Virus record (IMG/VR): IMGVR_UViG_3300010354_000519
Coordinates: 1-26,877 of that record
Length of the DNA stretch: 26,877 nucleotides
Strand: one strand, 5' to 3'
Source of the DNA: a virus
Under the pieces are notes generated by a model. That model worked only from the letters and a program-made list of their open reading frames with translations. It did not search any database and had not been told where the DNA came from. Shown piece after piece: positions 6,091-26,877 of this stretch. The position numbers were made by a program, and so were the translations under genes. Position 1 is the first letter of the stretch. Every line of letters starts with the position of its first letter.

Positions 6091-6696
6091 ATGGCAGAGT
6101 TTAAGATCAGCAGACTGCGCTACCGATGGATTGGCAACTGGCAACAGAATTATGCCTATAGAAGAGATGACTGCATTTTTTATGCTGGTGGTGCATGGAG
6201 TTGCATTAGAGCACATCAATCTTCTACTTTTTACGCAGATCAAAATTACAAATATAATATAACCGACACTGAAGTTGCTCCTGCTTGGCAGAGAATGACT
6301 GGTGGTTTAGAATTTAAACAAGATTGGACAACTGCTACAGTTTATACAGATGGTGATGTTGTATCTCATGGAGGCAATGTTTACACTTGTAGTATAGGAC
6401 ACGTTTCGTCTGCTACCTTTGATTTAGATTATTCTTATTGGACATTATTTTTTGCAGGAGAAAATTGGGTCAGCACTTGGGCTTCTGGATACAGATATAA
6501 ATTAGGTGACATCGTTACTTATAATGGTATCACTTATCGATGCATTAAAGAGCATACTTCTAATAGTGCAGGTATCAATGTAGGAAGTAACGACGGAATT
6601 GATGATAGCGCGAATGAAACATGGAAATTGTTGTTACTAATTTCAAATATAGAGGAACATTTTCTTCATCTACACTTTATCGAAAAAATGATGTAG
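6091..6696 (+). CDS. N-terminal fragment of giant adhesin 1 (CBM5/12-like repeats), frameshifted
   Basis: 201 codons, of which about 181 belong to the real protein. It begins MAEFKISRLRYRWIGNW, the same start as the giant gene at 11553 (MAEFKLGRIKFVWKGEW). It carries three repeats of the form W-x5-Y-x2-(G/D)D-x-(V/I)-x-Y-x-G-x2-Y-x-C-x3-H-x-S...W, which resemble CBM5/12 (ChtBD3) carbohydrate-binding domains. The third repeat ends ...ETWKLL at about 6633. The reading frame then turns into unrelated LLISNIEEHFLHLHF and stops at 6696, while the -1 frame continues the repeat as VTNFKYRGTF. The natural product is most likely one 6091-11513 polypeptide. Reading WKLL then VTNFKY restores exactly the W-to-aromatic spacing of the other repeats. 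No X-XXY-YYZ slippery heptamer is present, so a one-base deletion (real or an assembly error) is the simplest explanation. Confidence 0.8.
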   Translation: MAEFKISRLRYRWIGNWQQNYAYRRDDCIFYAGGAWSCIRAHQSSTFYADQNYKYNITDTEVAPAWQRMTGGLEFKQDWTTATVYTDGDVVSHGGNVYTCSIGHVSSATFDLDYSYWTLFFAGENWVSTWASGYRYKLGDIVTYNGITYRCIKEHTSNSAGINVGSNDGIDDSANETWKLLLLISNIEEHFLHLHFIEKMM

Positions 6697-11552: not shown

Positions 11553-14500
11553 ATGGCTGAGTTTAAACTAGGTAGGATCAAATTTGTTTGGAAAGGTGAA
11601 TGGAACACCGCAACACAATACATTAAAGATGATGTAATAAAGTATGGTGGAAAAACATACATGTGTGTCTTAGGACATACATCGTCGGTAGATTTCAATA
11701 CAGATCTAAACATTATTCCTACAAGATGGAATTTGATGGCAGATGGACAGCGTTGGAGAAGCGACTGGACAACTAGTACGATCTACGAAAAAGGTGATCT
11801 GGTAAAATATGGCGGCAATGTTTATCTTGCGATAACATATCATACATCTAGTTCTGTTTTGTCATCTGGGTTAGAAGCAGATAGTTCAAAATGGGAACTA
11901 TTTGCTGAAGGGTTTGATTGGAAAGGTGTTTGGACAACAGCAACTCGTTACAAACTCAATGACATAGTCAAGTATGGTGGTATAAATTATATTTGTATAA
12001 CTCAACATACATCTGCTTTAATGGCGAGCCAAGGACTTGAGCAAGATCAAGGCAAATGGCAAGTATTTACAGAAGGAACAGAGTATAAAGGAATATGGAC
12101 AGCAACTACACGCTACAAACTAAATGATGTAGTCAAATATGGTGCTGGAACATGGATTTGTATAACTCAACATACTTCATCAGGAACATTTGCATCTGAT
12201 TCCGCTAACTGGAATCAATACATTGAAGGTCTAGAATACGAATCAATCTGGAATAATAGCACAGCCTATCAACCAGGAGACATTGTAAAGTATGGTGGAA
12301 ATCAATATGTTTCAAAAACACAGCATACAGGCAGCAATCCAGTTACTGGAACAAGCAATTGGGATTTATTCAGTAAAGGATTAGATTTTAAATCAGATTG
12401 GGATATTGCAACAAGTTACTTAATCAGTGAAATGGTTAAGGTAAATGGTTATAATTATGTTGCCAATATTGATAGCCCAAGTTACCAATCAACTGTAACT
12501 GCAACTAGTAGCACAACTGATACCTTCTCGACTGCATCCACAACCAATATGCAGGTTGGAATGGCAATACAGTTTACAGGAACAACATTTGGAAATGTAT
12601 TCAATGGCGCAACCTATTATGTAAAAGAAATATCTGGTGCAACAACCTTTAAAATCACAAATTTCCCAGGTGGCCCTATTTTTAATCCTACTACTGGAAC
12701 CGGTTCTATGACAGCAACATATGCTGTTAAACCTCCTAATACAACTTACTGGACATTATTAAGTAATGGAATTAATTGGAGAGGTTACTGGGCTGATGAT
12801 ACAGAATATGTGCTAGGAGATGCAGTAAGATATCTTAATAATTCTTATATTTGTAAATTAGCACACAGATCAGATGCCGACGATGGTTCCACAACCGCAG
12901 CAGCAGGCGGTGGTCAAACAAATAGCAGACCTGACCAAGATACTTCAGGAACATATTGGAGTGTTTTAAGTGTAGGATCTGAAACTGCTACACTACAAGA
13001 ATTAGGTGACTTGGTTTACTATGATGGTGCTGGTCCTGCGAGATTGCCAATAGGAACAGATGGTCAAATTTTAAGAGTAAGTTCAGATCTTAAGCCAGAA
13101 TGGGTAACCTATGGTGTAACTGATAGAGTGTATTGGGTAGGCAATCATGGTGAAGATATGCCATGGCCAACTAGAGGTGCAACATTTGATAAGCCATGGA
13201 AGAGCATAAGATACGCTTGCGAACAAATTGAAAGAGGTGCGAGATATCCTGAAGCAAAGCGTTTACTAGAAATGAACAGACTGTTCATTCAAAGAGAAAC
13301 TACACAATGGATTAACTATCAAATTACAAACAGTTTGGCACCATTTGCTTCAAGTTTTAAATATAGGGAAGATCGTTGCGAACGAGATATCGGATGGGTT
13401 ATTGACGCACTTGTATACGACTTAGGTCACGGTGGAAATGTAAGAACCCGTGGAGCAGCACTTGCTTATGTGAACGCCTTAACTGAAGATGAGCAAACTG
13501 GAACAGGTGTATACTCGAAACTCAGCGCAGAGAGTGACGAAGATATTGCAGCATATAACTACATGCTTACCTTAATAGGAAATGTTTTAAATAACCAGGC
13601 ACCTGCACAAGCCTATCAAAATGTTACAGAGGATAGCACAAACATTATTCCTCAGTGGTTTGATAATGATCTAGTAGCAGAAACCGGAGCATTAGGAGAA
13701 ATTACAGATCTAGTAAGCATAGTTACTACTGCTCTTTCAGATAAAAATGCTACAAATATACCAGCAAGATATGCTGCATTTAACACAATTCATGTATTAA
13801 CTGGACAGTATAGAGAAGTACTACCTATTATTGTTCCAGAAAGCACAGTGGTGCTAGGAGATGAAGTTCGTTCTACAAATGCAGGTCCAGCAGGAAGTTT
13901 AGTTAATGCATCTGATGTAAAATATAGCGTTAGTAGTTTAGGAAGATTGGAGAGTATTGCTGGAGACATTGTAACTGGAACAGCAGTTACAAGAAGTCAA
14001 ACCAATACAACCGATCAAGTAATTCAGATTCCTTTAGGACAAACTGCTCAACGAACACTAGTCACACGACTAGCAAGAATGATGCAGCATAGGGTTGATT
14101 TCCTTACTACACAAACTAATATGATAACTTACACCTTGCCAACAGGATACGGGTCAACTTATCTGCAAGGATATCATCATGCTAGAAAACTAGTTTTAGA
14201 AAATAAAGAATTTATTAAAGCAGAAATTACAGCATTTATTAACTTTACATTTCCTAATGTAAAATACTCTAGAACGCAATGTAAGAGAGATGTTGGCTAC
14301 ATTGTAGATGCATTAGTTTATGATCTTACATATGGTGGAACAACTCAAATGTTGAATGCTGCATTAGCCTACTTTGATGGTCCAGGATCTAATCTTGTAA
14401 CAGACGACAGCGAAGCATCTGCTAACATTTCTGCCTATAATAGAATGAAAACTATATTGGCACAAATAGTTGTTAACACCTCTGTTACTAAAACTACAGG

Positions 14501-17500
14501 AAATACAGCAGTCCAATTTAGAGATACAAGTAATTTAACAAACGGAAATCTTGCTGTTACATTTATTAATAGTGCAATGGATTTAATTATTAATATGTTA
14601 GTTGGTGGAAATACTAATACTAGACCATCGATTACTGTAACAACAATTACCGGAGGAAATCTTTTCACAACAAGTGGAAGTCACGGATTAAGTTCAGGTG
14701 ATGTTGTCTACGCTACATCAACTTCATTAAATGGAATTGTGTCGGGAACAAAGTACTTTGTTTTACCTATTAATTTAACAGCAACTAGTTTTCAATTAAG
14801 TTTATCATTAAATGGTCCTGCTATCACAGTAGTGAACGGAACAGGATTATCGATAGGTTTCCATACAGAAGTTAGACCCCCATTAACTAACGGTGTTACA
14901 ACAACTACAGCGTTAATTAATGCATTTAATTCTTTAAGCGCAGCAGTTCCAGGAATTCAAATTGATACAATTGACTATATTAATAGTACATACGGAAATT
15001 TCACTTATAAAAGTGACTACTGTAGAAGAGATATTGGCTACTTAATTGATGCTGGATATTATGATTCTGCATTTGGATCAAATTACTGGGAAATTCAAAA
15101 CGGAATATCGTACTTAAGATTACAAGCCAGTGTTGTAACTAATTTCCAATTAGATCAAGAACTGGCATCTATCGCCTATATTAAATCTCAAGTTGCTGTT
15201 TCATTAGCAGCAAGTTCTACCGCGGTTACAAGAGCAAATAACTGCTACGACGGCATTATTGATATAATTTCCAATGGGCTATCTGCGGTACCGGCTATTA
15301 CGTGGACAGATCCAGGTGTAGACTCTAATAAATTATACGCTAGAGAGCAATTACAAACAAACAGAACATTTATTATAAACACAATAACCACTTGGCTTAT
15401 AGTTAACTATAATACTGTATGGGCAGGATTAGGAGCAACAGGACAGGCTAAATGTCAGCGTGATATTGGCTACTCTATCGATGCATTTAGTTATGACATA
15501 CAATATGGTGGAAATCTTGCTACAATTAATGTAATTAGATCCTTGTTTAATCAAGTAACGGGAGATAGTGTATATCCTGACAGTCAACAAAGAACTGCAA
15601 GTGCAGCAATGTATACTCAACTAGGATCGGTTTGCGGGCAAGTAGTTAGAGAACTGTACTCAGGGCAAGACACAAGTGGTAATGCCGCAACTGCAACAGA
15701 GCAAACAGCAATTACTACATTGGCAGGATACATTAATATTGCTATAGTAGCAAATGATCCTAATTCCTTACCAGGAGAAAGTTTACCTCTTGTAAGTTGG
15801 ACTGCCGGTGATATTCAAACTGCGTTAACATTGCTAAAATTAGAAAAAGCAGAGATTACATCAGATACTTTACAATTTATAACAGATACATTTAATGATT
15901 TCAAGTATAATCAATCAAAGTGTAGTAGAGATTTGGCTATTATCTTAGATGCTGTTGCTTACGATTTTTGCTTTAACACTAATCATCAAACAATTAAGGC
16001 AGCATACTCTTATCTTAGAGCAAGTGCTTCAGAAGTCTTTACATTAAATCAAAAAACTGTAACTAGAGAAGCATTAAATTATGCACGAGACATTGCACTT
16101 AATAACTTAAATGCTAATCTTACTGCTCAAACAAGATTAACTTCTCTAATGCAAATAGTTGATGATATATTATTCGGCGCAACAACAGAAGGAATTACTT
16201 GCAGCCAAGGTGAAGCGAATACAGATTATGCTATACATCTACTAGAATTGAATAGACAATTTATTATAGATGAAATTAAAGCATATAATATTGCTAATTT
16301 TTCGTCAACTGTGACTCTAACAACCACTTCTACCTTTACTTGTGGATCAACAGCATGGATGCAAAGAAATGCTGCTGTGAAGTTTGTAGGCACACTGTTT
16401 GGAGGAGTAAGTTTAAACACAACTTATTATATTCAAAATGTAATCGACGGTACATCATTTAGCATTGCAACAACTAGAAATGCTACTAGTCCGCTAAGTA
16501 TAACAGGCGGATCGGGTTCTATGGTTGTTCAATTAGATTATGACTTAGACTTCTGTTTAAGAGATGTTAACGAGTATATCAACGCACTAAAATTTGACCT
16601 ACGATTCACAGGAAATTATAAGTCGTGTCTAGCAGCAAGATACTATGCTAATGCTGTAAAAGGTAGTTTAGAAGAAGATATGTACTATCTACGAAATGCT
16701 ACCGGTATTAGAAATCAAACACTAGAAGGGCTAACAGGAGACTTATTAGCACCTAACCAATATGGAACAAGTAGAGTTAGTGCAGGTGCCTATTGCTCGT
16801 TAGATCCAGGTGCAGGACCGCATGACTACCATTCATGGATTATCAGTAGAAGTCCATATATTCAAAACGTGGCTACATTTGGATATGCTGCTATTGGACA
16901 AAAAGTAGACGGTGCATTACACAATGGCGGTAATGATAGTTTAACATCTAATGACTTTACCCAAATTATCAGTGACGGCATTGGTGCATGGATTACAAAT
17001 AATGCTCGCGCTGAATTAGTTAGTGTATTCACATACTATTCGCACGTAGGCTATCTTGCTGAAAACGGTGGACGTATTAGAGGCACTAACGGCAATAATT
17101 CTTACGGAGACTTTGGTAGTGTTGCTGAAGGGTTTGATGCTACAGAAACACCTATTCTAGCCGAAGTAGATAATAAAGGATTTAAAGCATCAGTTGGATC
17201 AGTCTTAACAGATGGAACTAATAAGTTATGGACTATAGAATATGACAATGCAGGCCAAGACCATACATTTGCAACATGGGCATTTGGGGGCAACGGATCA
17301 GGAATAAGCGTAGAACAAGATGAATTTAGAGACAACGGTGTTTTCCAAGTCAGGTTAACAGATCTTGTGGACGATAGTACTGATGCACCAGAGGCAGCAG
17401 GAAACTTTGGTGGATTTGGTTATATTACTAACAGTAACGTAGCGCAGTCAGGAACTACTACAGGAATTAAAATTGCTGCTGTAGATGCAGAAGTTGCAGC

Positions 17501-20132
17501 AGCCTATGTAGGAATGCGAATTGTTCTTACATCCGGTGCAGGTGCAGGACAATATGCTCAAATTACTAGTTATAATATTGGAACTAAAGATTTAACTATT
17601 ATTAAAGAGAGTGATGGATCAGCAGGGTGGGACCACTTTGTTCCTGGTACAACCATTGTAGCACCTGACGCATCGACAAGTTATACTATTGAGCCAAGAT
17701 TATCATTCACTAGCCCAACTTACACATCGACTGCAACTACCTTGTCAAATGCTGCTACCTATAATGATGCTATTTGGACAGAAACTTATAGAGTTTTTTA
17801 TCCTGTAACAGGCAATACAAGTGGTGGCGGTTCAGGTGCTAGATTTGTTGTTGTTAAGAAAGGTGGAAAATATAGTTCTATTACACTAATTCCTGGATAT
17901 TTAGGAATTAACTATGCAAGACTAGATACTATAACATTAGTAGGCGCAGATGTTGGTGGTGTTACAGGAACACATGATATTACCTTAACAATAACAACAA
18001 TTAATTCTACCAATGGAGCAATTGTTGAATTTGAATATGTTGGTATTGCACAATCTGGTAATTATATTGCTATTCCTAACACAGGACAAACACCTATAAC
18101 ATCTTCAGACGGTATAAACTGGACAACTCGTCCAGGAGTTTTACCAAGTAGTCTAACATGGACTGCTATGGCATCAGGTGAAGTGATTGAGACTAGTCCT
18201 ACACAGGCAGGTTCATTTGTTGTAGGCAGAAGTTATAAAATTGCAGCGCTGGCTACTACACAATGGACATTAATCGGGCATCCTGCTAGCAGTAACTTGT
18301 CTGTAAAACTAGGTGATTATTTTACAGCCACTGGCGCTGGTACTGGTACTGGTACTGCGACAGCATTTGAAAGACTAACTGTAGCGATTGCCAACGGAAG
18401 TAATGCAACAGCATACAGTAAAGATGGCGGAGTAAGTTGGACAGCAGGCCAAAATCTTACTGGCGCTTCTACTGCTAATAGTGCTATTGCATATTGTAGA
18501 TTAACAAGCGGTGCTACAAGATGGGTAGTAATTAAGTCAGGTGTAACTCAAACAAGTTGGAGCTCAACTGGTGGGGTAGGTGCTTGGCAGACAGGCGGCG
18601 CAATGCCTACAGCAAGCAACTGGAGCAGTCTCGCTTATGGTGCTGGAAGATTAGTTGCTATAGCAAATGGTTCAAGAGACACAGCATATAGCACAGATGG
18701 CGGGACTACATGGACTGCTGGAGGGCAAGTACCTGACGTAGGAACTAATCAATGGATAAGTGTAACTTATGGTAGAAATAAATTTATTGCTGTAACAGCA
18801 GATACAGGAGCAACAGCAGCATATAGTTTCGACGGAATTACCTGGACATCTGTAACGCTAAGTGAAAGTGCAAGTTACTCTAATGTAAGCTATGGACAAG
18901 GTGTATTTGTTGCTGTAAACGGCACTAATACAGCATCAAGTTCTGAAGATGGAATTAACTGGACTGATAGAGCTTTAACTCGTGCAAGTGGTACAGGATT
19001 TAAGAAAGCAGTCCATGGCAACCCATCAGGAACTCCAATATGGTCCATAATTCCTAGTGCCTCAACAACCGCAGCAAGTAGAGCAATTTTAGGCGCAACA
19101 ACACAGGCCAGATGCTTTGTACAAGAGGAAAAAATTTATGCAGTAAGAATTATAGATCCTGGAAGTTCTTATTCAAGTCCTCCTACTATGACAATTACTG
19201 ATCCAAATAACATTTATGAAGCACCTTTCCAAGTAAGAACTGCTAAAGGCGTTCTTGCACAACCTAGTTTTAGAAATAGAGGAACAGGCTATAATAATGT
19301 TATAGCAAACATTGATCAGACAGACGGATTAGCTGATAATTATCAAAGTGGAAAATTTATTTCTGTTAAACGCCTGACAGGAACACCACAATCAGGTGCT
19401 AACGTTGTATTTGCTAATTTACCTAATAGAACATATAAACTAGTGCAGGTATTAAGTTTACAAGGAACTAATGATGGAAGCATCAAGGCTTTCTTACAAG
19501 TGAGTCCAGATGTTACATTGTTTGATGCACCTAATGATGGAACTGGTGTAACAACTAGAATTCGTTATAGTCAAGTTCGTTTAACTGGCCATGACTTCTT
19601 AGATATAGGAACTGGTAATTTTGTAGAAACTAACTATCCAGGAACACCTACTCAAGTTCCTGTACAGGCCAATGAAACTGTAGATAATAATGGTGGTCGT
19701 GTATTCTATACCAGTACTGACCAAGACGGTAACTTTAGAGTTGGTGAATTGTTTACTATTGAACAAAGTACTGGTGTTGCTACATTAAATGCTGATGCAT
19801 TTAATATTGCAGGACTTTCAGAATTGACACTTGGTGCTGTAACATTAGGCGGAACAAGTGCAACAATTACTGAATTTAGTACAGATCCGTTCTTTACTTC
19901 TAACAGTGATAGCGTTGTGCCAACACAAAGAGCAATAAGGGCTTACATTTCAGCACAGATCGGTGGCGGCGGTGCGTCAATTAATGTAAATAGTGTAGTG
20001 GCAGGATTTATTGAAATTTCTGGAACAACTATTACAACAACCACAGGGCAACCGATAACAATGAAAGCTAACTTTAATTTTACAGGCGGGGTCAAAGGAT
20101 TGCCAATAGCCTGGAATTACTTCTTAAATTAA
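11553..20132 (+). CDS. Giant tail-fibre adhesin 2, 2859-residue multidomain protein
   Basis: Paralogue of the 6091-11513 gene and the largest gene here. Domain order (approximate residues): seven CBM5/12-like repeats (1-478), the sixth split by a beta module (312-392); an entry segment DRVYWVGNHGEDMPWPTRG (525); six helical modules whose C-x-R-D-(I/V/L) cysteines are at 609, 910, 1157, 1301, 1457 and 1668, each followed by I-(D/N)-A-x2-(Y/F)-D; a second beta module at about 1027-1107 and a third at 1585-1663; a right-handed beta-helix (1710-1935); Asp-box blades (2180-2483, such as SSDGINW and STDGGTTW) interrupted by an AGSFVVG module (2219-2274); and the C-terminal cassette GHDFLD, GRVFYTSTDQDGNF and VVPTQRAIRAYI (2671-2785). 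No signal peptide or membrane segment is seen. Predicted to be a very long trimeric adhesin that contacts host glycans. It has a perfect late promoter and a good ribosome site. Function is inferred from domains; no active site can be assigned. Confidence 0.88.
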   Translation: MAEFKLGRIKFVWKGEWNTATQYIKDDVIKYGGKTYMCVLGHTSSVDFNTDLNIIPTRWNLMADGQRWRSDWTTSTIYEKGDLVKYGGNVYLAITYHTSSSVLSSGLEADSSKWELFAEGFDWKGVWTTATRYKLNDIVKYGGINYICITQHTSALMASQGLEQDQGKWQVFTEGTEYKGIWTATTRYKLNDVVKYGAGTWICITQHTSSGTFASDSANWNQYIEGLEYESIWNNSTAYQPGDIVKYGGNQYVSKTQHTGSNPVTGTSNWDLFSKGLDFKSDWDIATSYLISEMVKVNGYNYVANIDSPSYQSTVTATSSTTDTFSTASTTNMQVGMAIQFTGTTFGNVFNGATYYVKEISGATTFKITNFPGGPIFNPTTGTGSMTATYAVKPPNTTYWTLLSNGINWRGYWADDTEYVLGDAVRYLNNSYICKLAHRSDADDGSTTAAAGGGQTNSRPDQDTSGTYWSVLSVGSETATLQELGDLVYYDGAGPARLPIGTDGQILRVSSDLKPEWVTYGVTDRVYWVGNHGEDMPWPTRGATFDKPWKSIRYACEQIERGARYPEAKRLLEMNRLFIQRETTQWINYQITNSLAPFASSFKYREDRCERDIGWVIDALVYDLGHGGNVRTRGAALAYVNALTEDEQTGTGVYSKLSAESDEDIAAYNYMLTLIGNVLNNQAPAQAYQNVTEDSTNIIPQWFDNDLVAETGALGEITDLVSIVTTALSDKNATNIPARYAAFNTIHVLTGQYREVLPIIVPESTVVLGDEVRSTNAGPAGSLVNASDVKYSVSSLGRLESIAGDIVTGTAVTRSQTNTTDQVIQIPLGQTAQRTLVTRLARMMQHRVDFLTTQTNMITYTLPTGYGSTYLQGYHHARKLVLENKEFIKAEITAFINFTFPNVKYSRTQCKRDVGYIVDALVYDLTYGGTTQMLNAALAYFDGPGSNLVTDDSEASANISAYNRMKTILAQIVVNTSVTKTTGNTAVQFRDTSNLTNGNLAVTFINSAMDLIINMLVGGNTNTRPSITVTTITGGNLFTTSGSHGLSSGDVVYATSTSLNGIVSGTKYFVLPINLTATSFQLSLSLNGPAITVVNGTGLSIGFHTEVRPPLTNGVTTTTALINAFNSLSAAVPGIQIDTIDYINSTYGNFTYKSDYCRRDIGYLIDAGYYDSAFGSNYWEIQNGISYLRLQASVVTNFQLDQELASIAYIKSQVAVSLAASSTAVTRANNCYDGIIDIISNGLSAVPAITWTDPGVDSNKLYAREQLQTNRTFIINTITTWLIVNYNTVWAGLGATGQAKCQRDIGYSIDAFSYDIQYGGNLATINVIRSLFNQVTGDSVYPDSQQRTASAAMYTQLGSVCGQVVRELYSGQDTSGNAATATEQTAITTLAGYINIAIVANDPNSLPGESLPLVSWTAGDIQTALTLLKLEKAEITSDTLQFITDTFNDFKYNQSKCSRDLAIILDAVAYDFCFNTNHQTIKAAYSYLRASASEVFTLNQKTVTREALNYARDIALNNLNANLTAQTRLTSLMQIVDDILFGATTEGITCSQGEANTDYAIHLLELNRQFIIDEIKAYNIANFSSTVTLTTTSTFTCGSTAWMQRNAAVKFVGTLFGGVSLNTTYYIQNVIDGTSFSIATTRNATSPLSITGGSGSMVVQLDYDLDFCLRDVNEYINALKFDLRFTGNYKSCLAARYYANAVKGSLEEDMYYLRNATGIRNQTLEGLTGDLLAPNQYGTSRVSAGAYCSLDPGAGPHDYHSWIISRSPYIQNVATFGYAAIGQKVDGALHNGGNDSLTSNDFTQIISDGIGAWITNNARAELVSVFTYYSHVGYLAENGGRIRGTNGNNSYGDFGSVAEGFDATETPILAEVDNKGFKASVGSVLTDGTNKLWTIEYDNAGQDHTFATWAFGGNGSGISVEQDEFRDNGVFQVRLTDLVDDSTDAPEAAGNFGGFGYITNSNVAQSGTTTGIKIAAVDAEVAAAYVGMRIVLTSGAGAGQYAQITSYNIGTKDLTIIKESDGSAGWDHFVPGTTIVAPDASTSYTIEPRLSFTSPTYTSTATTLSNAATYNDAIWTETYRVFYPVTGNTSGGGSGARFVVVKKGGKYSSITLIPGYLGINYARLDTITLVGADVGGVTGTHDITLTITTINSTNGAIVEFEYVGIAQSGNYIAIPNTGQTPITSSDGINWTTRPGVLPSSLTWTAMASGEVIETSPTQAGSFVVGRSYKIAALATTQWTLIGHPASSNLSVKLGDYFTATGAGTGTGTATAFERLTVAIANGSNATAYSKDGGVSWTAGQNLTGASTANSAIAYCRLTSGATRWVVIKSGVTQTSWSSTGGVGAWQTGGAMPTASNWSSLAYGAGRLVAIANGSRDTAYSTDGGTTWTAGGQVPDVGTNQWISVTYGRNKFIAVTADTGATAAYSFDGITWTSVTLSESASYSNVSYGQGVFVAVNGTNTASSSEDGINWTDRALTRASGTGFKKAVHGNPSGTPIWSIIPSASTTAASRAILGATTQARCFVQEEKIYAVRIIDPGSSYSSPPTMTITDPNNIYEAPFQVRTAKGVLAQPSFRNRGTGYNNVIANIDQTDGLADNYQSGKFISVKRLTGTPQSGANVVFANLPNRTYKLVQVLSLQGTNDGSIKAFLQVSPDVTLFDAPNDGTGVTTRIRYSQVRLTGHDFLDIGTGNFVETNYPGTPTQVPVQANETVDNNGGRVFYTSTDQDGNFRVGELFTIEQSTGVATLNADAFNIAGLSELTLGAVTLGGTSATITEFSTDPFFTSNSDSVVPTQRAIRAYISAQIGGGGASINVNSVVAGFIEISGTTITTTTGQPITMKANFNFTGGVKGLPIAWNYFLN
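18333..18356 (+). repeat. Short tandem hexamer repeat (GGTACT)
   Basis: Three exact GGTACT units (18339-18356) follow one degenerate unit, GGCGCT. They encode the alternating Gly-Thr run within GAGTGTGTAT, at the end of an inserted module in the propeller region of giant adhesin 2. Confidence 0.8.
19692..19740 (+). repeat. 49-bp near-identical patch shared with 11049-11097
   Basis: Second copy of the patch in giant adhesin 2; only two third-position T/C differences separate it from the first copy. Confidence 0.85.
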
Positions 20133-20498: not shown

Positions 20499-21407
20499 AT
20501 GGGACGCAATGTAAGTACAGGTGTAGCGGGAAGTGGTGCTGGATTAGGCTCAGTATACGCATCTGGTCAAAATACTATCACTACCGCAGTTACTAACCAA
20601 GATATTATATTTGATCCTAACGGAACAGGAACAGTGCAGTTTGTCGGAGGTCTACAATTAAGGACCAACGGTGAAATGAGAGCATATAACACTGCGAATA
20701 CATTTTACACATCAGTTAAATCCTTGGCAGGTCTGAGTGCAAACACAACGTTTCAATTACCTAGTAGTAACGGATCAGTCGGTGCATTTTTGCAAACCGA
20801 CGGAACCGGAGTAACAAGTTGGCAAGCCGTTCCTACGGCTGCATTAACGGTCAGTGATGCAGGATCAAATAGTAATACACATTATGTTTATTTTGGTACA
20901 AGTACACCAACTGAAGGAAGTTTGCCTACAGGCGCTCAATCAACTATGAGAGTTGACAGTGGGCTTACATTTATACCTAGTGAAAATAGAATAGTATCAA
21001 GTATAGGCCAACACCCCACAGTTACTGGCAGTAGCGGTGCTAGTGGACAACTTACTATTCAAGGAACAACAAATTCTACTAAAAACACTGCCAGTGTTCT
21101 GTTTAATGATAACGTTACAAGTTCATCCACAAGTACAGGAACAGTGGTGGTCACTGGAGGTGTAGGTATTAGTGGAGCATTAAATGTAGGCGGTTCTATA
21201 AGTTCAAATAGTTCTACTGTAGTTACACAATCTAGTCTAGGAACTTTACAACCTACCTTAGGAACTAATGCTATAATTAGAACAAATGCAAATACAATAA
21301 ATGAAACAATTACTATACCAGCAGGCACAAATGGCATGAGTTCAGGACCAATAACAATTGCAAGCGGCCAAACAGTTACAGTAAACGGTGATTGGAGTGT
21401 TGTTTAA
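20499..21407 (+). CDS. Tail fibre protein with conserved C-terminal tip
   Basis: 302 residues, rich in Gly, Ser, Thr and Asn. The N-terminus (GRNVSTGVAGSGAGLGSVYA) is followed by DIIFDPNGTGTVQFVGGLQL, a strand repeat typical of fibre shafts that also appears in the gene at 3277 (IEFDPSGTGKVKV). Residues about 210-232 (TSTGTVVVTGGVGISGALNV) are the widespread fibre collar repeat. The C-terminal ITIPAGTNGMSSGPITIASG, then TVTVNGDWSVV, is a conserved beta-helical tip in which short I-T-I strands pack in a triangular spiral. No cleaved chaperone domain is visible. The stop overlaps the ATG of the first small adhesin gene (TAATG), and a GGAG (21393-21396) sits just upstream of it. The likely role is the shaft onto which the small downstream adhesins attach, an inference from order. 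Confidence 0.75.
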   Translation: MGRNVSTGVAGSGAGLGSVYASGQNTITTAVTNQDIIFDPNGTGTVQFVGGLQLRTNGEMRAYNTANTFYTSVKSLAGLSANTTFQLPSSNGSVGAFLQTDGTGVTSWQAVPTAALTVSDAGSNSNTHYVYFGTSTPTEGSLPTGAQSTMRVDSGLTFIPSENRIVSSIGQHPTVTGSSGASGQLTIQGTTNSTKNTASVLFNDNVTSSSTSTGTVVVTGGVGISGALNVGGSISSNSSTVVTQSSLGTLQPTLGTNAIIRTNANTINETITIPAGTNGMSSGPITIASGQTVTVNGDWSVV

Positions 21408-21973
21408 TGAGCACATTAGTTGTAGATGAGATTGCCGGAAGACAAGATGGCGATCATCTAATTGCTTTTCCTAACAATAATACTCTTTATGTACCTGGGC
21501 AAGTTATTCAGTGTGTTTGGACCAAAATGGACAATCATGCTACATATAATAGTTACAATGATAACACTAGTAGAGATATAGCAGGGCTTAATACTACAAT
21601 AACCTTAAAACGTGCTAATAGTTTAGTATATATGCAATGGTGGTTATTTTATGAATGCCACCATGATATTACGTTTCAGGCCAAAAGAAGTGGAACAGTA
21701 ATAGGATACAATACAGAAGTAGGCAATGTTAGATGGAGTGGCATAGGCTGTGCTGAATATGAACACTCGCATGATCAAAGCAGTACACCATCTTACACTC
21801 ACATGGCTTGGGTTGATACACCAGGAAGCGTTGGTCCTCATGTTTATAGTTTAGGATCAAGGAGTAGTACAGGAACAAACTATGACATACGTGTTAACAG
21901 AGCATGGGGCGCTTTTCAAGATGATCATGAAGGTGGTGTAAGTTTTTGTATGATACAGGAGATCGCTCAATGA
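21407..21973 (+). CDS. Small jelly-roll-like adhesin, array gene A1
   Basis: 188 residues from ATG 21407, which is preferred over an in-frame ATG at 21392 because it overlaps the upstream stop (TAATG), has TTGGAG about 11 bases upstream, and restores the family start MSTLVVDEI. The core reads YVPGQVIQCVW, LFYECHHDITFQ, VIGYNTEVGNVRWSG, then STPSYTHMAWVDTPGS and HVYSLGSRSS. It belongs to a family of short beta-sandwich proteins encoded after the fibre genes of aquatic phages. The HHD motif with a nearby Glu could hold a metal or mediate ligand contact (speculative). It is the first of three related genes (A1-A3) and overlaps the next start by four bases (ATGA). A host-receptor-binding or fibre-tip role is inferred. 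Confidence 0.72.
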   Translation: MSTLVVDEIAGRQDGDHLIAFPNNNTLYVPGQVIQCVWTKMDNHATYNSYNDNTSRDIAGLNTTITLKRANSLVYMQWWLFYECHHDITFQAKRSGTVIGYNTEVGNVRWSGIGCAEYEHSHDQSSTPSYTHMAWVDTPGSVGPHVYSLGSRSSTGTNYDIRVNRAWGAFQDDHEGGVSFCMIQEIAQ

Positions 21974-22518
21974 CCTTAACAGTAGGCGGTCTAGCACCTG
22001 CAACTGGTACCCAGTTACAAATAAACAATGGATTAATACAGCAAGGCACTGTTATACAGTGGGTGCAAGCAAGTACAAGTGTTAGAACTACGTATACTGC
22101 TCAGCCCAGCGGTAACGGCACTGCTATTACACAATTAAATCTTACTATAACTCCAAGAAGAGCAGATAGCGTCATATGGCTAAGATGGACAACTTTTTAT
22201 GAAATGCATCATGATTGCGGGTTTGTTGTTCTAAGAGACTCAAACTTAATTGGTTATAATACATATAGAGGAAATGTTAGATGGTCTAATATTTTAACTC
22301 CACTATATGACAATGACTATAGTACAACTCCACAACAGAGCACAATAAATTGGTTTGACCCCGCAGGAAACACCACAGCCAGAACTTATAGTTTGGCTGT
22401 TAGAAGTAGTTCAACTGGGACTTTTACTTATGCTCTAAATAGATCATTAAATAGTGCAGGTACAGACGGGCAAGAAGTGGGACATAGTTGGGGATGGGCT
22501 AGGGAGATTTCAGGATGA
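21970..22518 (+). CDS. Small jelly-roll-like adhesin, array gene A2
   Basis: 182 residues from ATG 21970. This start overlaps the previous stop as ATGA and has AGGAGA at 21957-21962, a better choice than an in-frame ATG at 21946. It shares with A1 the segments TTFYEMHHDCGFVVLRDSNL, IGYNTYRGNVRWS, then STTPQQSTINWFDPAG and RTYSLAVRSSSTG. Its N-terminus, MTLTVGGLAPATGTQL, is shorter and lacks the S-T-L-x-V-D start of its relatives. The C-terminal WGWAREISG is a shared closing strand, and the stop again overlaps the next ATG by four bases. The fold is probably a single beta-sandwich domain per chain. Role inferred: receptor binding at a fibre tip. Confidence 0.7.
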   Translation: MTLTVGGLAPATGTQLQINNGLIQQGTVIQWVQASTSVRTTYTAQPSGNGTAITQLNLTITPRRADSVIWLRWTTFYEMHHDCGFVVLRDSNLIGYNTYRGNVRWSNILTPLYDNDYSTTPQQSTINWFDPAGNTTARTYSLAVRSSSTGTFTYALNRSLNSAGTDGQEVGHSWGWAREISG

Positions 22519-23129
22519 GCGTACTCAAAGTTGATACTATAACAGGACCAGTTAGAGTAGCATATCCTAATGCTATCTATGCTCCAGGACACATCGTACA
22601 AGTTACATATTCTGTAGCCATGCAGCGTCATTATTATTCAGTTCCAAATAATGATGGCGGCATGCGAGCAGATATTTTTGCTGAAGGCATCCATGAAGGT
22701 GGTGTTATTATAAGGCCATTAGATGTTAGTATAAAGCCACGTAGTAGAGACAGTTTTATCTTTGTTGAGTTTAATGTGTTTTTTGAAGCAGGACAAGATG
22801 TAGTGTTTACAGTTTTACGAGATGGCAATATGATAGGTGCAGCACAACCAGATCATGAAATCATTGGTAGATATGGCGCAAGTAAACAACAAGGCATTGG
22901 TGTTTCTCGCTACGATAACAACTATGATAGTACGCCAAGTTACATACAGGTTCCGTGGATAGATCGCCCAGGTAAATTAGACTGGGTCACATACAGTTTT
23001 GCAGCAAAAAGTTCAGGTGGATCAAATCAAACCTTTACACTAAACACAACATTTACAAATTATCAAAACGGAGCCGACGCCTATGAAACAGGCGTTAGTT
23101 TTGGAATAGCACAAGAAATAGCCGCATAA
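22515..23129 (+). CDS. Small jelly-roll-like adhesin, array gene A3 (longer, divergent)
   Basis: 204 residues, starting MSVLKVDTITGPVRVAYPNA; the ATG overlaps the preceding stop by four bases. It follows the plan of A1 and A2 (YAPGHIVQVTYS, IKPRSRDSFIFVEFNVFFEA, FTVLRDGNMIG, DSTPSYIQVPWIDRPGK, YSFAAKSSGG, FGIAQEIAA), but the HHD motif of the other two is replaced by AGQD. It also has two insertions, one before the RPLDVSIKPR strand and one after MIGAAQ (PDHEIIGRYGASKQQ). If HHD matters for ligand contact, this copy should differ in specificity. It ends the A group. A late-promoter-like octamer overlaps its stop and opens the next block. Confidence 0.68.
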   Translation: MSVLKVDTITGPVRVAYPNAIYAPGHIVQVTYSVAMQRHYYSVPNNDGGMRADIFAEGIHEGGVIIRPLDVSIKPRSRDSFIFVEFNVFFEAGQDVVFTVLRDGNMIGAAQPDHEIIGRYGASKQQGIGVSRYDNNYDSTPSYIQVPWIDRPGKLDWVTYSFAAKSSGGSNQTFTLNTTFTNYQNGADAYETGVSFGIAQEIAA

Positions 23130-23132
23130 ATA
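23125..23132 (+). promoter_or_regulatory. T4-like late promoter overlapping a stop codon
   Basis: CATAAATA is a one-mismatch match to the T4 late octamer. It overlaps the stop of array gene A3 and lies 20 bases before the ATG of the chaperone-like gene. Confidence 0.5.
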
Positions 23133-23152
23133 ATAGAAGGAATTAGAAAAAC

Positions 23153-23584
23153 ATGTCAGATACCGCTAGCCCAAGTAGAAGAATTTTACCAATAGCAGAA
23201 GCAGTGCATTTATTAGCCCCTAATGCTACATGGAGTCTCGAAGGAGATGAAATTACTAATTTGGTATGGGAATCAGATCCTAGTCTCAGACCTAGTAACC
23301 AGGCTATTTTAGCCAAAGCAGAAGAATTGCTCAATGAAGCACCGATGAGGGCGCTTCGTAGAGTAAGAGATGCTCGTTTAAGAGAAACAGATTGGGTTAC
23401 TCTTAGAGCGATGAGAACTGGAGAACCTATTCCTCAAGAATGGAAAGATTATATGCAGGCCTTGGCAGACATTACTAAGAATAGCAATCCTCAGTTGGTA
23501 AGCGGAGAACTTGTGGGTGTGACATGGCCTGAAAGACCTGACGGAGAAACAGCAGGTCAGGGAAGATTTAGAGTAATTCGATGA
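23153..23584 (+). CDS. Tail fibre assembly chaperone-like protein 1
   Basis: 143 residues, unlike the beta-rich genes around it. The N-terminal half (VHLLAPNATWSLEGDEITNL, VWESDPSLRPSNQAILAKAE, ELLNEA) has the shape of the first domain of phage tail fibre assembly proteins. The second half, RRVRDARLRETDWVTLRAMR, followed by TGEPIPQEWKDYMQALADIT, is the R-D-x-x-L-x-x-(S/T)-D-W...G-x-P-x-P-x-x-W-x-x-Y-R/M-x-x-L-x-x-I/L signature of the tail chaperone (Caudo_TAP-type) fold. Such proteins fold fibre tips and may stay bound as caps. It follows a promoter-like element and precedes four adhesins (B1-B4), overlapping B1 by four bases, so it probably serves them. Naming is by motif resemblance, not by a search. 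Confidence 0.75.
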   Translation: MSDTASPSRRILPIAEAVHLLAPNATWSLEGDEITNLVWESDPSLRPSNQAILAKAEELLNEAPMRALRRVRDARLRETDWVTLRAMRTGEPIPQEWKDYMQALADITKNSNPQLVSGELVGVTWPERPDGETAGQGRFRVIR

Positions 23585-24087
23585 GCACAGTTAGAGCAGA
23601 TAATCTTCAGGCAGTTACAAGTGAAGTAACTTTGCCGTTAACTGAACTAAGGCAACGTGTTATAAAAGATTTTAGATCACGTTACACAGGAGGATCTTAT
23701 ATACCTGGGGATACATATGCCTGGGCACTAGGCATGTTCCAAGATTATGCTCCAGCATCTGCTTCTAGTAGAATTAGAACGACTATAAGTTTTAGTTATA
23801 GCCATGAAAATGGACATGCAATTAGTCACTGGATATTTTATGCCAATGGCACAGAAATTGGTCGTCATAGTATTGCAGGACAAAGTCCTGAACATAGACA
23901 TGTTTATGTTTGGGATTTTGCCAGTTGGGGAACTAGCACTGCTCGTATAGGCTATCAAGTTAGACGATACGGTGGTGGCAATCAGCCTAGAATACACGCC
24001 ACACATCATTGGGATGGCACTGGCAGTAATCAATCGTCCCTTGCTGTGGGTGAAATGACAATAGAGGAATATTTTGCAATACCATGA
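23581..24087 (+). CDS. Small jelly-roll-like adhesin, array gene B1
   Basis: 168 residues, starting MSTVRADNLQAVTSEVTLPL (four-base ATGA overlap with the chaperone gene). Family B core: YTGGSYIPGDTYAWALGMFQ, DYAPASASSRIR, GHAISHWIFYANGTEIGRHS, VWDFASWGTSTARIGYQVRR, then HHWDGTGSNQSS and MTIEEYFAIP. The repeated aromatic and SWGTS turns suggest a beta-sandwich. Family A genes share its plan (a TPRR-x-DS-x-I-like strand, an F-x-E/A-x-G/H-D strand, a final EE-closing strand), so A and B may be distant homologues. No enzyme motif is seen. Role inferred: fibre-tip receptor binding. Confidence 0.72.
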   Translation: MSTVRADNLQAVTSEVTLPLTELRQRVIKDFRSRYTGGSYIPGDTYAWALGMFQDYAPASASSRIRTTISFSYSHENGHAISHWIFYANGTEIGRHSIAGQSPEHRHVYVWDFASWGTSTARIGYQVRRYGGGNQPRIHATHHWDGTGSNQSSLAVGEMTIEEYFAIP

Positions 24088-24593
24088 GTACACTAATAGT
24101 TGATCAATTAACTGTAGACCCAGAACAAACACAGGTTCCTCTTACCGAACTAGGCTATCGTGTTATAAGAAGTTATAGAGCCACTTATACAGGTGGGCAA
24201 TGGAACCCTAATACAAGTTATCAGTGGGTGCCAGGAATGTTTTACGATTATACACCATTGCTAGGCAGCAGCAGGATAAGAACATATTGTCATCTTCCTT
24301 ATGCACGAAATAGCGGTGCAGCACACGCCATAAGTCATTGGATCTTTTATGCCAATGGTGTAGAGCAAGGTCGTCACAGCATATCCGGTAACCACTTAGA
24401 GGACATGAGCACCTATACCTGGGATTTTGCCAGTTGGGGCACTAGTGTAGGCCGTATAGGATATCAAACACGATCTTATGGTGATGACAACCACGAAGTT
24501 CGTCCTTACACTACACAATATTGGGATGGTGGTGGCAGTGCTCAAAATTGTTATGGCCAACTTGTCATAGAAGAATATTTGCCAGGAGTGTAA
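24084..24593 (+). CDS. Small jelly-roll-like adhesin, array gene B2 (mosaic)
   Basis: 169 residues, starting MSTLIVDQLTVDPEQTQVPL (ATGA overlap with B1). Its ends match its downstream neighbours (YTGGQWNPNTSYQWVPGMFY at the start; DDNHEVRPYTTQYWDGGG and LVIEEYLPG at the end). Its centre matches upstream B1 (HAISHWIFYANGVEQGRHSI and YTWDFASWGTS). At DNA level a 20-base stretch spanning the WDFASWG codons is identical to B1 (23911-23930 against 24420-24439). This mix points to recombination between adjacent copies. The gene reads directly into B3, with AGGAG at 24584-24588 before the next start. Confidence 0.72.
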   Translation: MSTLIVDQLTVDPEQTQVPLTELGYRVIRSYRATYTGGQWNPNTSYQWVPGMFYDYTPLLGSSRIRTYCHLPYARNSGAAHAISHWIFYANGVEQGRHSISGNHLEDMSTYTWDFASWGTSVGRIGYQTRSYGDDNHEVRPYTTQYWDGGGSAQNCYGQLVIEEYLPGV

Positions 24594-25097
24594 ATGGGAG
24601 CCCTTACTGTAGAAACATTAAGAGACGTTGGCGGAACAGTAACTATTCCAGTACGCGATCTTAAGCAACGAGTTATACAATACTACCAAGCAGTATATAC
24701 TGGTGGAGAGTGGAATCCAGATAACACCTTTAACTGGATACCTGGAGCATTTTATGATTTTACTCCACGCAGATCGGATTCAAGAATAAAATACACAATG
24801 AGACTTCCTATAGCATGGGTTGCAGCAACCCATGCTATAAGCCATATGTATTTTTATGCTAATAATATTTTGTATTACTATTGGAGTGAAAGCGGAACAC
24901 ATATTGAAAATGGCAGGACTTTTGAATTTGAAGTCCCAAGTTGGGGCACTAGTCTGGGACGTATAGGTATGCAGCATAGATCTTATTCGAACGACAATCA
25001 TGAAGTCAGGATGTACACAACATACTATTGGGATGGCGGCGGTCGAAGCGCTCAAAATGCAAGAGGTCATTTAATGATAGAGGAGTTGCTTTACTAA
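24594..25097 (+). CDS. Small jelly-roll-like adhesin, array gene B3
   Basis: 167 residues, starting MGALTVETLRDVGGTVTIPV immediately after the B2 stop with no gap. It shares with B4 the segments YTGGEWNPDNTFNWIPGAFY, DFTPRRSDSRIK, HAISHMYFYANN, YYYWSESGTHIENG, PSWGTSLGRIGMQHRSYSND, NHEVRMYTTYYWDGGG and RSAQNARGHL. The centre holds a perfect 15-bp inverted repeat (24809-24839) in the codons for PIAWVAATHAIS. The stop overlaps the B4 ATG by one base. Function inferred from the family; no catalytic motif is present. Confidence 0.72.
   Translation: MGALTVETLRDVGGTVTIPVRDLKQRVIQYYQAVYTGGEWNPDNTFNWIPGAFYDFTPRRSDSRIKYTMRLPIAWVAATHAISHMYFYANNILYYYWSESGTHIENGRTFEFEVPSWGTSLGRIGMQHRSYSNDNHEVRMYTTYYWDGGGRSAQNARGHLMIEELLY
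24809..24839. repeat. Perfect 15-bp inverted repeat inside array gene B3
   Basis: Left arm TATAGCATGGGTTGC (24809-24823) and right arm GCAACCCATGCTATA (24825-24839) are perfect complements around a single A. As RNA it would form a strong hairpin with a three-base loop. It lies in coding sequence, not at a gene end. Confidence 0.95.
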
Positions 25098-25654
25098 TGG
25101 GTACACTAAGATTAGATGCAATTAGTAATAGACTAGGAACGATTACTATTCCTGTAGCCGAGTTGACTGCTAGAGTTATACAACGTTATGAAAATACCTA
25201 TACCGGTGGAGAATGGAATCCTGATAATACTAGTACATGGGTTCCTGGGGGATTCGTAGATTTTACTCCCCGCAGTGCCCAGTCAAGAATTCATTTTTTG
25301 TGGAGAATACCACATGCTTGGTCAAATGCCTCACATGCTATAAGTCATTGGAGATTTTTTGTGAACGGCATATGCTATTACTGGCATAGTCAATCCGGCG
25401 TTCATATCGAAGATGGTAATATTATACAATGGGATGTTCCTAGTTGGGGCACTAGTTCTGGGCGTATAGGGTATCAAGTAAGATCATATGCAAATGATAA
25501 CCATGAAACTAGACTATATACTACTTACCACTGGGATGGTACAGGGCGCAGTGCTCAAAATGCACGAGGACAACTTATAGTAGAAGAATATCTAGGAGTC
25601 GGCGAGCCGACAGCAGTTGGTACCGCTACAAGACAAACAATTACAGCAAGGTAA
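25097..25654 (+). CDS. Small jelly-roll-like adhesin, array gene B4
   Basis: 185 residues from ATG 25097. An in-frame ATG at 25028 lies inside B3, but 25097 overlaps the B3 stop (TAATG), has GAGGAG at 25080-25085, and yields the family start MGTLRLDAISNRLGTITIPV. It is closest to B3 (YTGGEWNPDNTSTWVPGGFV, DFTPRSAQSRIH, HSQSGVHIEDGN, NHETRLYTTYHWDGTG, RSAQNARGQL). The C-terminus runs about 18 residues past the family end at EEYLG, with a Gly/Thr/Ala-rich tail (VGEPTAVGTATRQTITAR). The tail could be a linker, or coding that grew through a lost stop. A weak late promoter overlaps its stop. Confidence 0.72.
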   Translation: MGTLRLDAISNRLGTITIPVAELTARVIQRYENTYTGGEWNPDNTSTWVPGGFVDFTPRSAQSRIHFLWRIPHAWSNASHAISHWRFFVNGICYYWHSQSGVHIEDGNIIQWDVPSWGTSSGRIGYQVRSYANDNHETRLYTTYHWDGTGRSAQNARGQLIVEEYLGVGEPTAVGTATRQTITAR

Positions 25655-25657
25655 ATA
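25650..25657 (+). promoter_or_regulatory. Weak T4-like late promoter overlapping a stop codon
   Basis: GGTAAATA contains the TAAATA core with two mismatches at the 5' side. It overlaps the stop of B4 and lies 19 bases before the second chaperone-like gene, the same layout as at 23125. Confidence 0.38.
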
Positions 25658-25676
25658 AAGAAACAAGGAGATAACA

Positions 25677-26006
25677 ATGTCTAATGATGTTGATTTTGGG
25701 GAAGTGATGCATAAATTCTACGCTGGTCGTTTATACGGTGTGAGAGGACCTTTATACGATGACATCACATGGATGGAAACTACACCTAAGCCCACTAGAG
25801 AAGAACTCATTGCTAAATGGGAAACAATTAAAGATGAAATAGCATTGCGCAGAATTCACGAGAAGCGTTCAATGCCAGGAAAATATCCAAGCAGAGATGA
25901 AATGATTGTTGCATTGTGGGAAATGGTTGTAGAAAATCGTCCCGAAAAGGTTGCAGCACTTCAGGCCCGTAGAGAACAAATTAAGCAAGAATTTCCTAAG
26001 CCATAA
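25677..26006 (+). CDS. Tail fibre assembly chaperone-like protein 2
   Basis: 109 residues, charged and helical. ITWMETTPKPTREELIAKWE (about 32-50) and RSMPGKYPSRDEMIVALWEM (about 64-83), followed by REQIKQEFPKP at the end, look like the second half of phage tail-fibre chaperones: a W-x-(D/E)-x-T-x-K-P-T-x-x-E-L strand-helix, then Y-P-S-x-x-(D/E)-x-x-x-A-L-W and a C-terminal I-K-x-x-F-P-K-P. It is distinct in sequence from the 23153 protein, so the two may serve different tips. It has a strong AAGGAG site at 25665-25670 and a possible late promoter. Two family B adhesins follow, the second cut by the window end. Assignment is by motif resemblance. Confidence 0.68.
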   Translation: MSNDVDFGEVMHKFYAGRLYGVRGPLYDDITWMETTPKPTREELIAKWETIKDEIALRRIHEKRSMPGKYPSRDEMIVALWEMVVENRPEKVAALQARREQIKQEFPKP

Positions 26007-26008
26007 AC

Positions 26009-26518
26009 ATGACTGGTACACTATTAGTTAATACAATTAGAAATTCTGCAAATTCTGTCAATCTTTCTACGACTTATTTTAACAGAAGACTAGTTCAAAG
26101 GACCTATAGATGGTTCAGGGGTGGCGCATGGAATCCCGGTAATAATTACTATGAAGTTCCTGGTAGTTGGTTAAACATAACACCAGTTTACAGTAATAGT
26201 TTTTTAACTTATACTTGGATGTGCCCGCTAGGACACAGAGGTGCTGCACATTCAATTACTCATTGGATTTTTATGGCCAATGGTCAAGAATATGCAAGAC
26301 ATAGTGTAAGTGTAGATCATCAAGAATCAGGCATAATTCGCAGATGGGAAGTTCCTAGTTGGGGTGCAGGTAAAGCATCAGGTATGGGATATATTACAAG
26401 ACAATATACTGATAGTAACCATAGTGTTCATTTTAATGCGCAAAGATATCAAAATGGCGGTGATAGCACAAGGGGTGTTCCTAGTTGGGTTAGTGTAGAG
26501 GAGTATACAGCAGCATGA
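26009..26518 (+). CDS. Small jelly-roll-like adhesin, array gene B5
   Basis: 169 residues, starting MTGTLLVNTIRNSANSVNLS. It keeps the family framework (FRGGAWNPGNNYYEVPGSWL, AAHSITHWIFMANGQEYARH, EVPSWGAGKASGMGYITRQY, DSNHSVHFNAQRY, SVEEYTAA), but SWGTS becomes SWGAG and the R-x-SAQNARG block is missing. It is closer to the next gene than to B1-B4, forming a separate pair. It begins two bases after the chaperone stop without a visible Shine-Dalgarno, so translation is probably coupled. Its stop overlaps the next ATG by four bases. Confidence 0.7.
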   Translation: MTGTLLVNTIRNSANSVNLSTTYFNRRLVQRTYRWFRGGAWNPGNNYYEVPGSWLNITPVYSNSFLTYTWMCPLGHRGAAHSITHWIFMANGQEYARHSVSVDHQESGIIRRWEVPSWGAGKASGMGYITRQYTDSNHSVHFNAQRYQNGGDSTRGVPSWVSVEEYTAA

Positions 26519-26877
26519 CCGGCATTTTACAGGTAGACAGTGTTACTAACGAGGCTAACTCATTTAGTATTACAACTGATTATTTTAAAAGACGAGTAAT
26601 TCAACGAACAAGTTATATACATAGAACTGGTTGGTGGAGAGCAAATAATGCCTACTATTGGGTTCCTGGTGCTTATATGGACTTTAGACCAATGAGAGGT
26701 GATACTCGTATTCGCGCAAGTTATAATATTCATACAAGACAGTATGGACCAAGTCAGCATATGATCATGCACTATATCTTTTATGTAGACGAAGTTGAAT
26801 ACGGACGTTTTACTAGAGGCGGACATCACGTAGAAAATACTAACACAATACAGTTTGATGTTCCAAGTTGGGATGCA
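26515..26877 (+). CDS. Small jelly-roll-like adhesin, array gene B6 (cut by window end)
   Basis: 121 codons are visible, open to the last base, with no stop. It starts MTGILQVDSVTNEANSFSIT at an ATGA overlap, with GAGGAG about 11 bases upstream. It pairs with B5 (YFKRRVIQRT and AYYWVPGAYMDFRPMRGDTR against YFNRRLVQRT and NYYEVPGSWLNITP). It retains the family pattern in MHYIFYVDEVEYGRF, then a HHVEN segment and PSWDA at the cut. The array therefore continues downstream of the window. Confidence 0.72.
   Translation, partial: MTGILQVDSVTNEANSFSITTDYFKRRVIQRTSYIHRTGWWRANNAYYWVPGAYMDFRPMRGDTRIRASYNIHTRQYGPSQHMIMHYIFYVDEVEYGRFTRGGHHVENTNTIQFDVPSWDA

Follow-up and report, generated by a model that had tools for sequence, protein, structure and literature searches.

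The 3' end of the virus record IMGVR_UViG_3300010354_000519, of which positions 1-26,877 were analyzed (this whole 26,877-base stretch is hereafter called the window), carries an array of nine short fiber-tip genes from two families, A and B, together with genes for a tail-fiber assembly chaperone (C1) and a chaperone-like protein (C2), in the order three A, C1, four B, C2 and two B (AAA-C-BBBB-C-BB; Table 1). On balance, we favor the reading that these nine genes encode non-redundant subunits of obligate heterotrimeric fiber tips, as a trimeric fold encoded by three conserved genes that are not equivalent is most simply explained by an obligate heterotrimer. Judged by the identity of its major capsid protein (71% to Vibrio phage 2.275.O and 66% to PA5oct), the source of the window is a T4-like large myovirus.

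A fixed array of separately conserved genes

The open reading frames and junctions are as they had been described in the original prediction, which was made from the window sequence alone and noted nine tandem genes of families A1-A3 and B1-B6 in tight packing. Four-base ATGA overlaps join A1/A2, A2/A3, C1/B1, B1/B2 and B5/B6, while B3 and B4 overlap by one base, B2 and B3 abut and two bases separate C2 from B5; longer gaps are found only 5' of C1 (23 bases) and C2 (22 bases). The count had originally been left open at a minimum of nine. The array itself stands and the open end does not, as B6, which is cut by the end of the window, is complete (170 amino acids) in a 94%-identical relative (L004, a 63.7-kb contig) and is followed there by an unrelated 161-amino-acid gene, two tryptophan-halogenase genes and a 2OG-Fe(II) oxygenase gene; the array therefore comprises exactly nine tip genes.

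The relatives used for comparison are viral contigs from scans; their identity to the B4 query is 57-96%, and near-identical copies of one another are among them. Every full-length related contig, down to 57% identity, shows the order AAA-C-BBBB-C-BB. In trees of ten representatives including the window (approximately eight lineages, or five groups at 70% identity of A1), A1, A2, A3, B1, B5 and B6 each form one clade, and B2, B3 and B4 nearly do so, with exceptions in the divergent contigs L014 (B2-B4) and L009 (B4). The B tree has the form ((B1,B2),(B3,B4)),(B5,B6), that is, three sister pairs. The ratio of nonsynonymous to synonymous substitution rates (dN/dS), estimated roughly against the two nearest contigs with dS near saturation, is 0.016-0.047 for each A and B gene and is higher in C1 (approximately 0.11) and in the shaft protein encoded 5' of A1 (0.07). 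Going by these comparisons, purifying selection acts strongly on all A and B genes, and the duplication that made the array is ancient rather than recent. As each of the nine copies is conserved separately, the co-display suggested originally is likely. Of the originally stated refuting condition, a fixed single-copy arrangement with no sign of duplication, only the fixed arrangement is seen in the related genomes, the array being multi-copy and anciently duplicated.

Fold, fiber context and chaperones

Family A copies match one another with E values of 1e-22 to 1e-32 and family B copies with 1e-12 to 1e-80 (24-61% identity), and no convincing relation between A and B was found by BLASTP. In a profile comparison, the two families align end to end (97.9%, 162 columns), and the nine tip genes are therefore ancient paralogs. 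Single-chain AlphaFold models, one per family (A1 and B2), are both confident and both depict a compact jelly-roll. Foldseek matched the two models alike to the Chlamydia Pgp3 C-terminal domain, the BC2L-C TNF-like lectin domain, the lectin PLTL and the C1q head, and B2 additionally to the tail needle knobs of phages Sf6 and HS1; the Foldseek probability is 1.00 to the Pgp3 C-terminal domain, BC2L-C and C1q, with moderate template-modeling scores of approximately 0.4-0.6 by query length. The C1q head, the BC2L-C N-terminal domain, PLTL and the Pgp3 C-terminal domain thus have the same jelly-roll, yet they are cellular proteins of approximately 8-15% identity with no sequence relation to the array products. 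According to the models, A and B share a TNF/C1q-like jelly-roll fold. A jelly-roll of this kind normally trimerizes, and the Pgp3 C-terminal domain, BC2L-C, PLTL, the C1q head and the needle knobs are all trimers, the C1q head being a heterotrimer of three different chains.

In other phages, the A-type domain forms the C-terminal tip of fiber proteins, as in phrog_6942 and in residues 491-657 of orf22 in PDB 9efk (3.9e-26), where, unlike in the array, tip and shaft are fused in one chain encoded by one gene. The B-type domain is found at the C-terminus of a 960-amino-acid fiber-like protein (L018) and a 577-amino-acid collagen-like protein (L019), with an A gene next in both. As both domains occur at fiber C-termini elsewhere, the assignment of the A and B products as predicted phage fiber-tip domains is well supported, and their fold and position suggest that they bind receptors. 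A Pfam scan covering A1-A3 and B1-B5 gave no gp37-like collar-domain match, and tblastn against 50,697 phage records found no relative of family B.

The shaft protein ends in a connector motif that is at the extreme C-terminus of the protein in 112 of 112 matches. Of these 112 motifs, 84 are directly followed by an A gene and one by a B gene, a count biased by the fetching of the loci by A or B. In one relative (L008), the motif is the end of the giant fiber itself, the shaft being fused to it. The connector end of the shaft is likely the docking end for the A head.

C1 scores well above the PF16778 (Phage_tail_APC) cut-off (50.6 bits versus 26.6), and its profile matches the solved chain PDB 2kz6. 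For C2, the Pfam scan gave no PF16778 match and named matches are weak (phrog_9114, 1.9e-5; XkdW, 0.022); its N-terminal domain is homologous to that of C1 (98.3% over 60 columns in a profile match) and its C-terminal domain differs. As only the N-terminal domain is common to both, C2 is termed chaperone-like here. With this distinction, the earlier expectation of fiber-tip domains with dedicated chaperones agrees with the domain evidence. A fitting model for C1, by analogy, is the Pam3 chaperone gp25, whose N-terminal beta-sandwich holds a TNF-like tip and whose helical C-terminus drives trimerization of gp24 (PMC9608196). Pam3 resembles the array in that a TNF-like fiber tip, gp24, has its own chaperone (PMC9608196), and differs in that gp24 is a homotrimer of one protein.

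Both C1 and C2 are preceded by a TAAATA box resembling T4 late promoters (CATAAATA and GGTAAATA, respectively). Across eight contigs, such a box was found 5' of C1 or C2 in 13 of 16 cases and 5' of none of 72 tip genes, against a background of 0.02 per window scanned, so that the promoter-like elements noted originally before each chaperone are better supported than had been claimed. From this distribution, it is likely that C1-B1-B4 and C2-B5-B6 are transcribed late as two separate units, A1-A3 being transcribed from further upstream. The original proposal of one chaperone per bank of adhesins therefore holds insofar as C1 and C2 probably start two transcription units; it fails in that A1-A3 lack an upstream chaperone of their own and that the B genes are split four and two despite forming three sister pairs. 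In the window as a whole, TAAATA occurs 12 times on the + strand and twice on the - strand, rarer than the approximately 23 per strand expected from a first-order estimate, and five of the 12 + strand boxes sit 25-36 bp 5' of a gene start. Sigma-70-like promoter matches near the array exceeded shuffled sequences only modestly (29 versus 21) and terminator matches were fewer than in shuffles; neither was used.

Table 1 Features of the array and its fiber genes (window positions)
Feature	Position	Strand	Evidence
Giant tail fiber, 2859 aa, six CBM_5_12 stretches	11553..20132	+	phrog_9851 tail fiber 1e-194; PF02839 5e-28
Fiber shaft protein, 302 aa, C-terminal connector motif of ~50 residues	20499..21407	+	phrog_7459 and phrog_5342 matches
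A1, predicted TNF/C1q-like tip subunit	21407..21973	+	AlphaFold pLDDT (predicted local distance difference test) 91.9; Foldseek Pgp3 C-terminal domain, BC2L-C TNF-like lectin, C1q head; slot-specific clade 100/98
A2, predicted tip subunit	21970..22518	+	phrog_6942 tail fiber C-terminus 2e-15; clade 100/99
A3, predicted tip subunit	22515..23129	+	phrog_6942 8e-8; clade 100/99
Late-promoter-like box before C1	23125..23132	+	TAAATA, T4-late-like
C1, tail-fiber assembly chaperone	23153..23584	+	PF16778 1.7e-13; phrog_4912 tail fiber assembly 2.7e-13; PDB 2kz6 2.4e-10
B1, predicted TNF/C1q-like tip subunit	23581..24087	+	family B similarity; one clade 100/99 across contigs
B2, predicted TNF/C1q-like tip subunit	24084..24593	+	AlphaFold pLDDT 89.5; Foldseek BC2L-C and PLTL TNF-like lectins, Sf6/HS1 tail needle knobs
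B3, predicted tip subunit	24594..25097	+	family B similarity; tree
B4, predicted tip subunit	25097..25654	+	family B similarity; tree
Late-promoter-like box before C2	25650..25657	+	TAAATA, T4-late-like
C2, second chaperone-like protein	25677..26006	+	N-terminal domain homologous to that of C1, C-terminal domain different; phrog_9114
B5, predicted tip subunit	26009..26518	+	one clade 100/98
B6, predicted tip subunit, cut by window end	26515..26877	+	170 aa in L004; one clade 94/81

Proposed heterotrimeric tips weighed against other assemblies

In the assembly that we favor, whose oligomeric state, B grouping, docking to the shaft, chaperone action and receptor binding are all predicted, A1, A2 and A3 would assemble 1:1:1 into one trimeric head capping the fiber whose shaft ends in the connector motif, and the six B proteins would form two further heterotrimers. 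C1 and C2, as the first genes of separate late transcription units, would hold the tip subunits and nucleate trimerization as Pam3 gp25 does, and three different faces per head would create an asymmetric receptor-binding surface. An ancestral B trio may have doubled in place, for example into B1/B3/B5 and B2/B4/B6, which would fit the B tree.

Additional support comes from the number of tip genes in other genomes. When A and B clusters were counted in all fetched loci, collapsed at 70% identity and clear of contig ends, 44 had one gene, 16 had three, one had six and five had nine, with six clusters of two genes and one of four. Among the six two-gene counts, that of L127 is accompanied by a third gene, unassigned but similar in size, those of L100, L129 and L126 are single tips separated by a chaperone, L018 is a B-A pair and L133 lies beside a further member. 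That clusters are mostly of one or three genes, and also of six or nine, points to heterotrimers. The trios are not a single inherited set, as the branches to which their members belong differ from phage to phage while the number stays at three; slot orthology of A trios was found within groups and not between distant phages. The only six-gene cluster (L030) consists of three close and three distant A members, and L146-L149, on contigs of up to 230 kb, contain a separate BBB trio, its third B gene being part of a 1170-amino-acid protein with a glycine-rich domain. In the cultured Synechococcus phages ACG-2014j and S-WAM2, exactly three homologous A genes (annotated as "tail fiber protein") lie between the giant fiber gene and a small chaperone-like gene; no B genes were found there, whereas the window phage has six.

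A biochemical precedent is the Dishui Lake virophage DSLV2, in which three consecutive tail proteins co-purify 1:1:1 and bind the receptor, with the slots forming separate clades (PMC12724248). A1-A3 are likewise three consecutive small paralogs with slot-specific clades. DSLV2 differs in being a virophage, in having three genes rather than nine and in that its proteins are, by that paper's account, T4 gp37-like collar-domain proteins (PMC12724248).

Several observations weigh against heterotrimeric tips. The heterotrimer rests on single-chain models and sequence, and the DSLV2 precedent is an analogy to proteins resembling T4 gp37 tips with a collar domain. A few two-gene clusters do exist, the seeds for the counts were themselves trios, so that ascertainment enters and the counts are no unbiased census, and the nine-gene contigs, being of common descent, do not count as five independent cases. 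The 658-amino-acid fused homolog orf22 in 9efk is present as 18 identical chains, showing that the fold can make homotrimers. As the array reads 3 + 4 + 2 and not 3 + 3 + 3, chaperone boundaries do not mark trimers. Finally, the B genes form three pairs to which the BBB trio of L146 does not correspond one-to-one. A derivation of the six B genes from a single trio, with the L146 BBB trio as proof, was not supported, as the three L146 genes cluster with one another instead of with the B pairs.

A distinctly less probable reading is that the array encodes nine different homotrimeric adhesins co-displayed at distinct sites, each having a receptor or a structural position of its own. This would suit the common occurrence of A homologs as single genes, with 44 single-gene clusters, the identical chains of orf22 and the separate conservation of all nine genes; it predicts neither the one-or-three cluster sizes and recurring trios of different make-up nor the single connector-ended shaft protein 5' of A1-A3. 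Improbable, to our judgment, is an arrangement in which A1-A3 would be the sole heterotrimer and the B proteins would form a six-chain or pairwise heteromer (B1/B2, B3/B4, B5/B6), for example a collar or tip ring. The three sister pairs of the B tree and the splitting of the operon between pairs would accord with it, while the structures closest to the B fold are trimeric and a BBB trio exists elsewhere.

The original prediction had also raised interchangeable tips; in this reading, recombination or alternative expression would exchange them to change host range. A bank that serves for exchange would be expected to vary. Tandem paralogs, B genes up to 61% identical and C-terminal extra domains that differ between relatives might be expected of such a bank, but all full-length contigs have the same genes in the same number and order, slots form clades with the few exceptions in L014 (B2-B4) and L009 (B4), purifying selection is strong (dN/dS approximately 0.02-0.05) and no conserved exchange site was seen. 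On the first three of these grounds, interchangeability is rejected, and we regard it as very improbable.

More broadly, aquatic tailed phages may build such heads as obligate heterotrimers of TNF/C1q-like paralogs with tip genes in threes, here as three heads (A1A2A3 and two from B1-B6), each with three different binding faces and some subunits with variable extra domains, as a phage counterpart of the C1q head; this generalization we consider evenly poised. Tip domains, chaperones and A-trio genes are already known or annotated, and no description of the fixed nine-gene array, the phage B family or the counting pattern was found in the literature searched. Phage fiber tips are generally treated as homotrimers. 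If the tip genes of this family, which is widespread in aquatic settings, do encode subunits of obligate heterotrimers, one tip can show three different faces. It would then be wrong to annotate duplicated "adhesin" genes as alternative receptors, and predictions of host range based on one tip gene would be misleading. Given the counting pattern and the short, co-expressible genes, the heterotrimer idea can be tested directly.

Extra domains and neighboring genes

Most B genes of L008 carry extra C-terminal domains (L008:7770-14001), which are immunoglobulin-like by Pfam in B1 and B6 and, by eye only, cupredoxin-like in B2 and B5 and propeller-like in a region of B6. B6 of L012 resembles a discoidin-like domain weakly, with a score below the cut-off. 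Some relatives may thus attach specificity domains to the conserved tip core, which would serve as a scaffold. By eye, B6 of L008 and a 494-amino-acid protein of L018 share a region. The 1170-amino-acid protein of the BBB trio also has a fibrinogen-like C-terminus by eye (L148:9033-12545), and the six A genes of L030 are followed by three glycine-rich adhesin-like genes and two chaperone-like genes (L030:7911-16156, in a 135-kb contig).

On the + strand of the window, the array follows the 2859-amino-acid giant fiber, a 113-amino-acid protein and the 302-amino-acid shaft protein. TATAAATA is found 37 bp 5' of the giant fiber gene (11553). A second fiber of 1630 amino acids (6621-11513) has two CBM_5_12 stretches, as against six in the giant fiber. 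Within B3 lies a perfect 31-base palindrome (window 24809-24839, with 15-base arms and a one-base center); it was considered as an exchange site and rejected, as L003 and L004, both close relatives, lack it. Downstream of the array in L004, the two tryptophan-halogenase genes flank the 2OG-Fe(II) oxygenase gene (L004:12459-16092), and similar downstream genes are seen by eye in L008 and L012.

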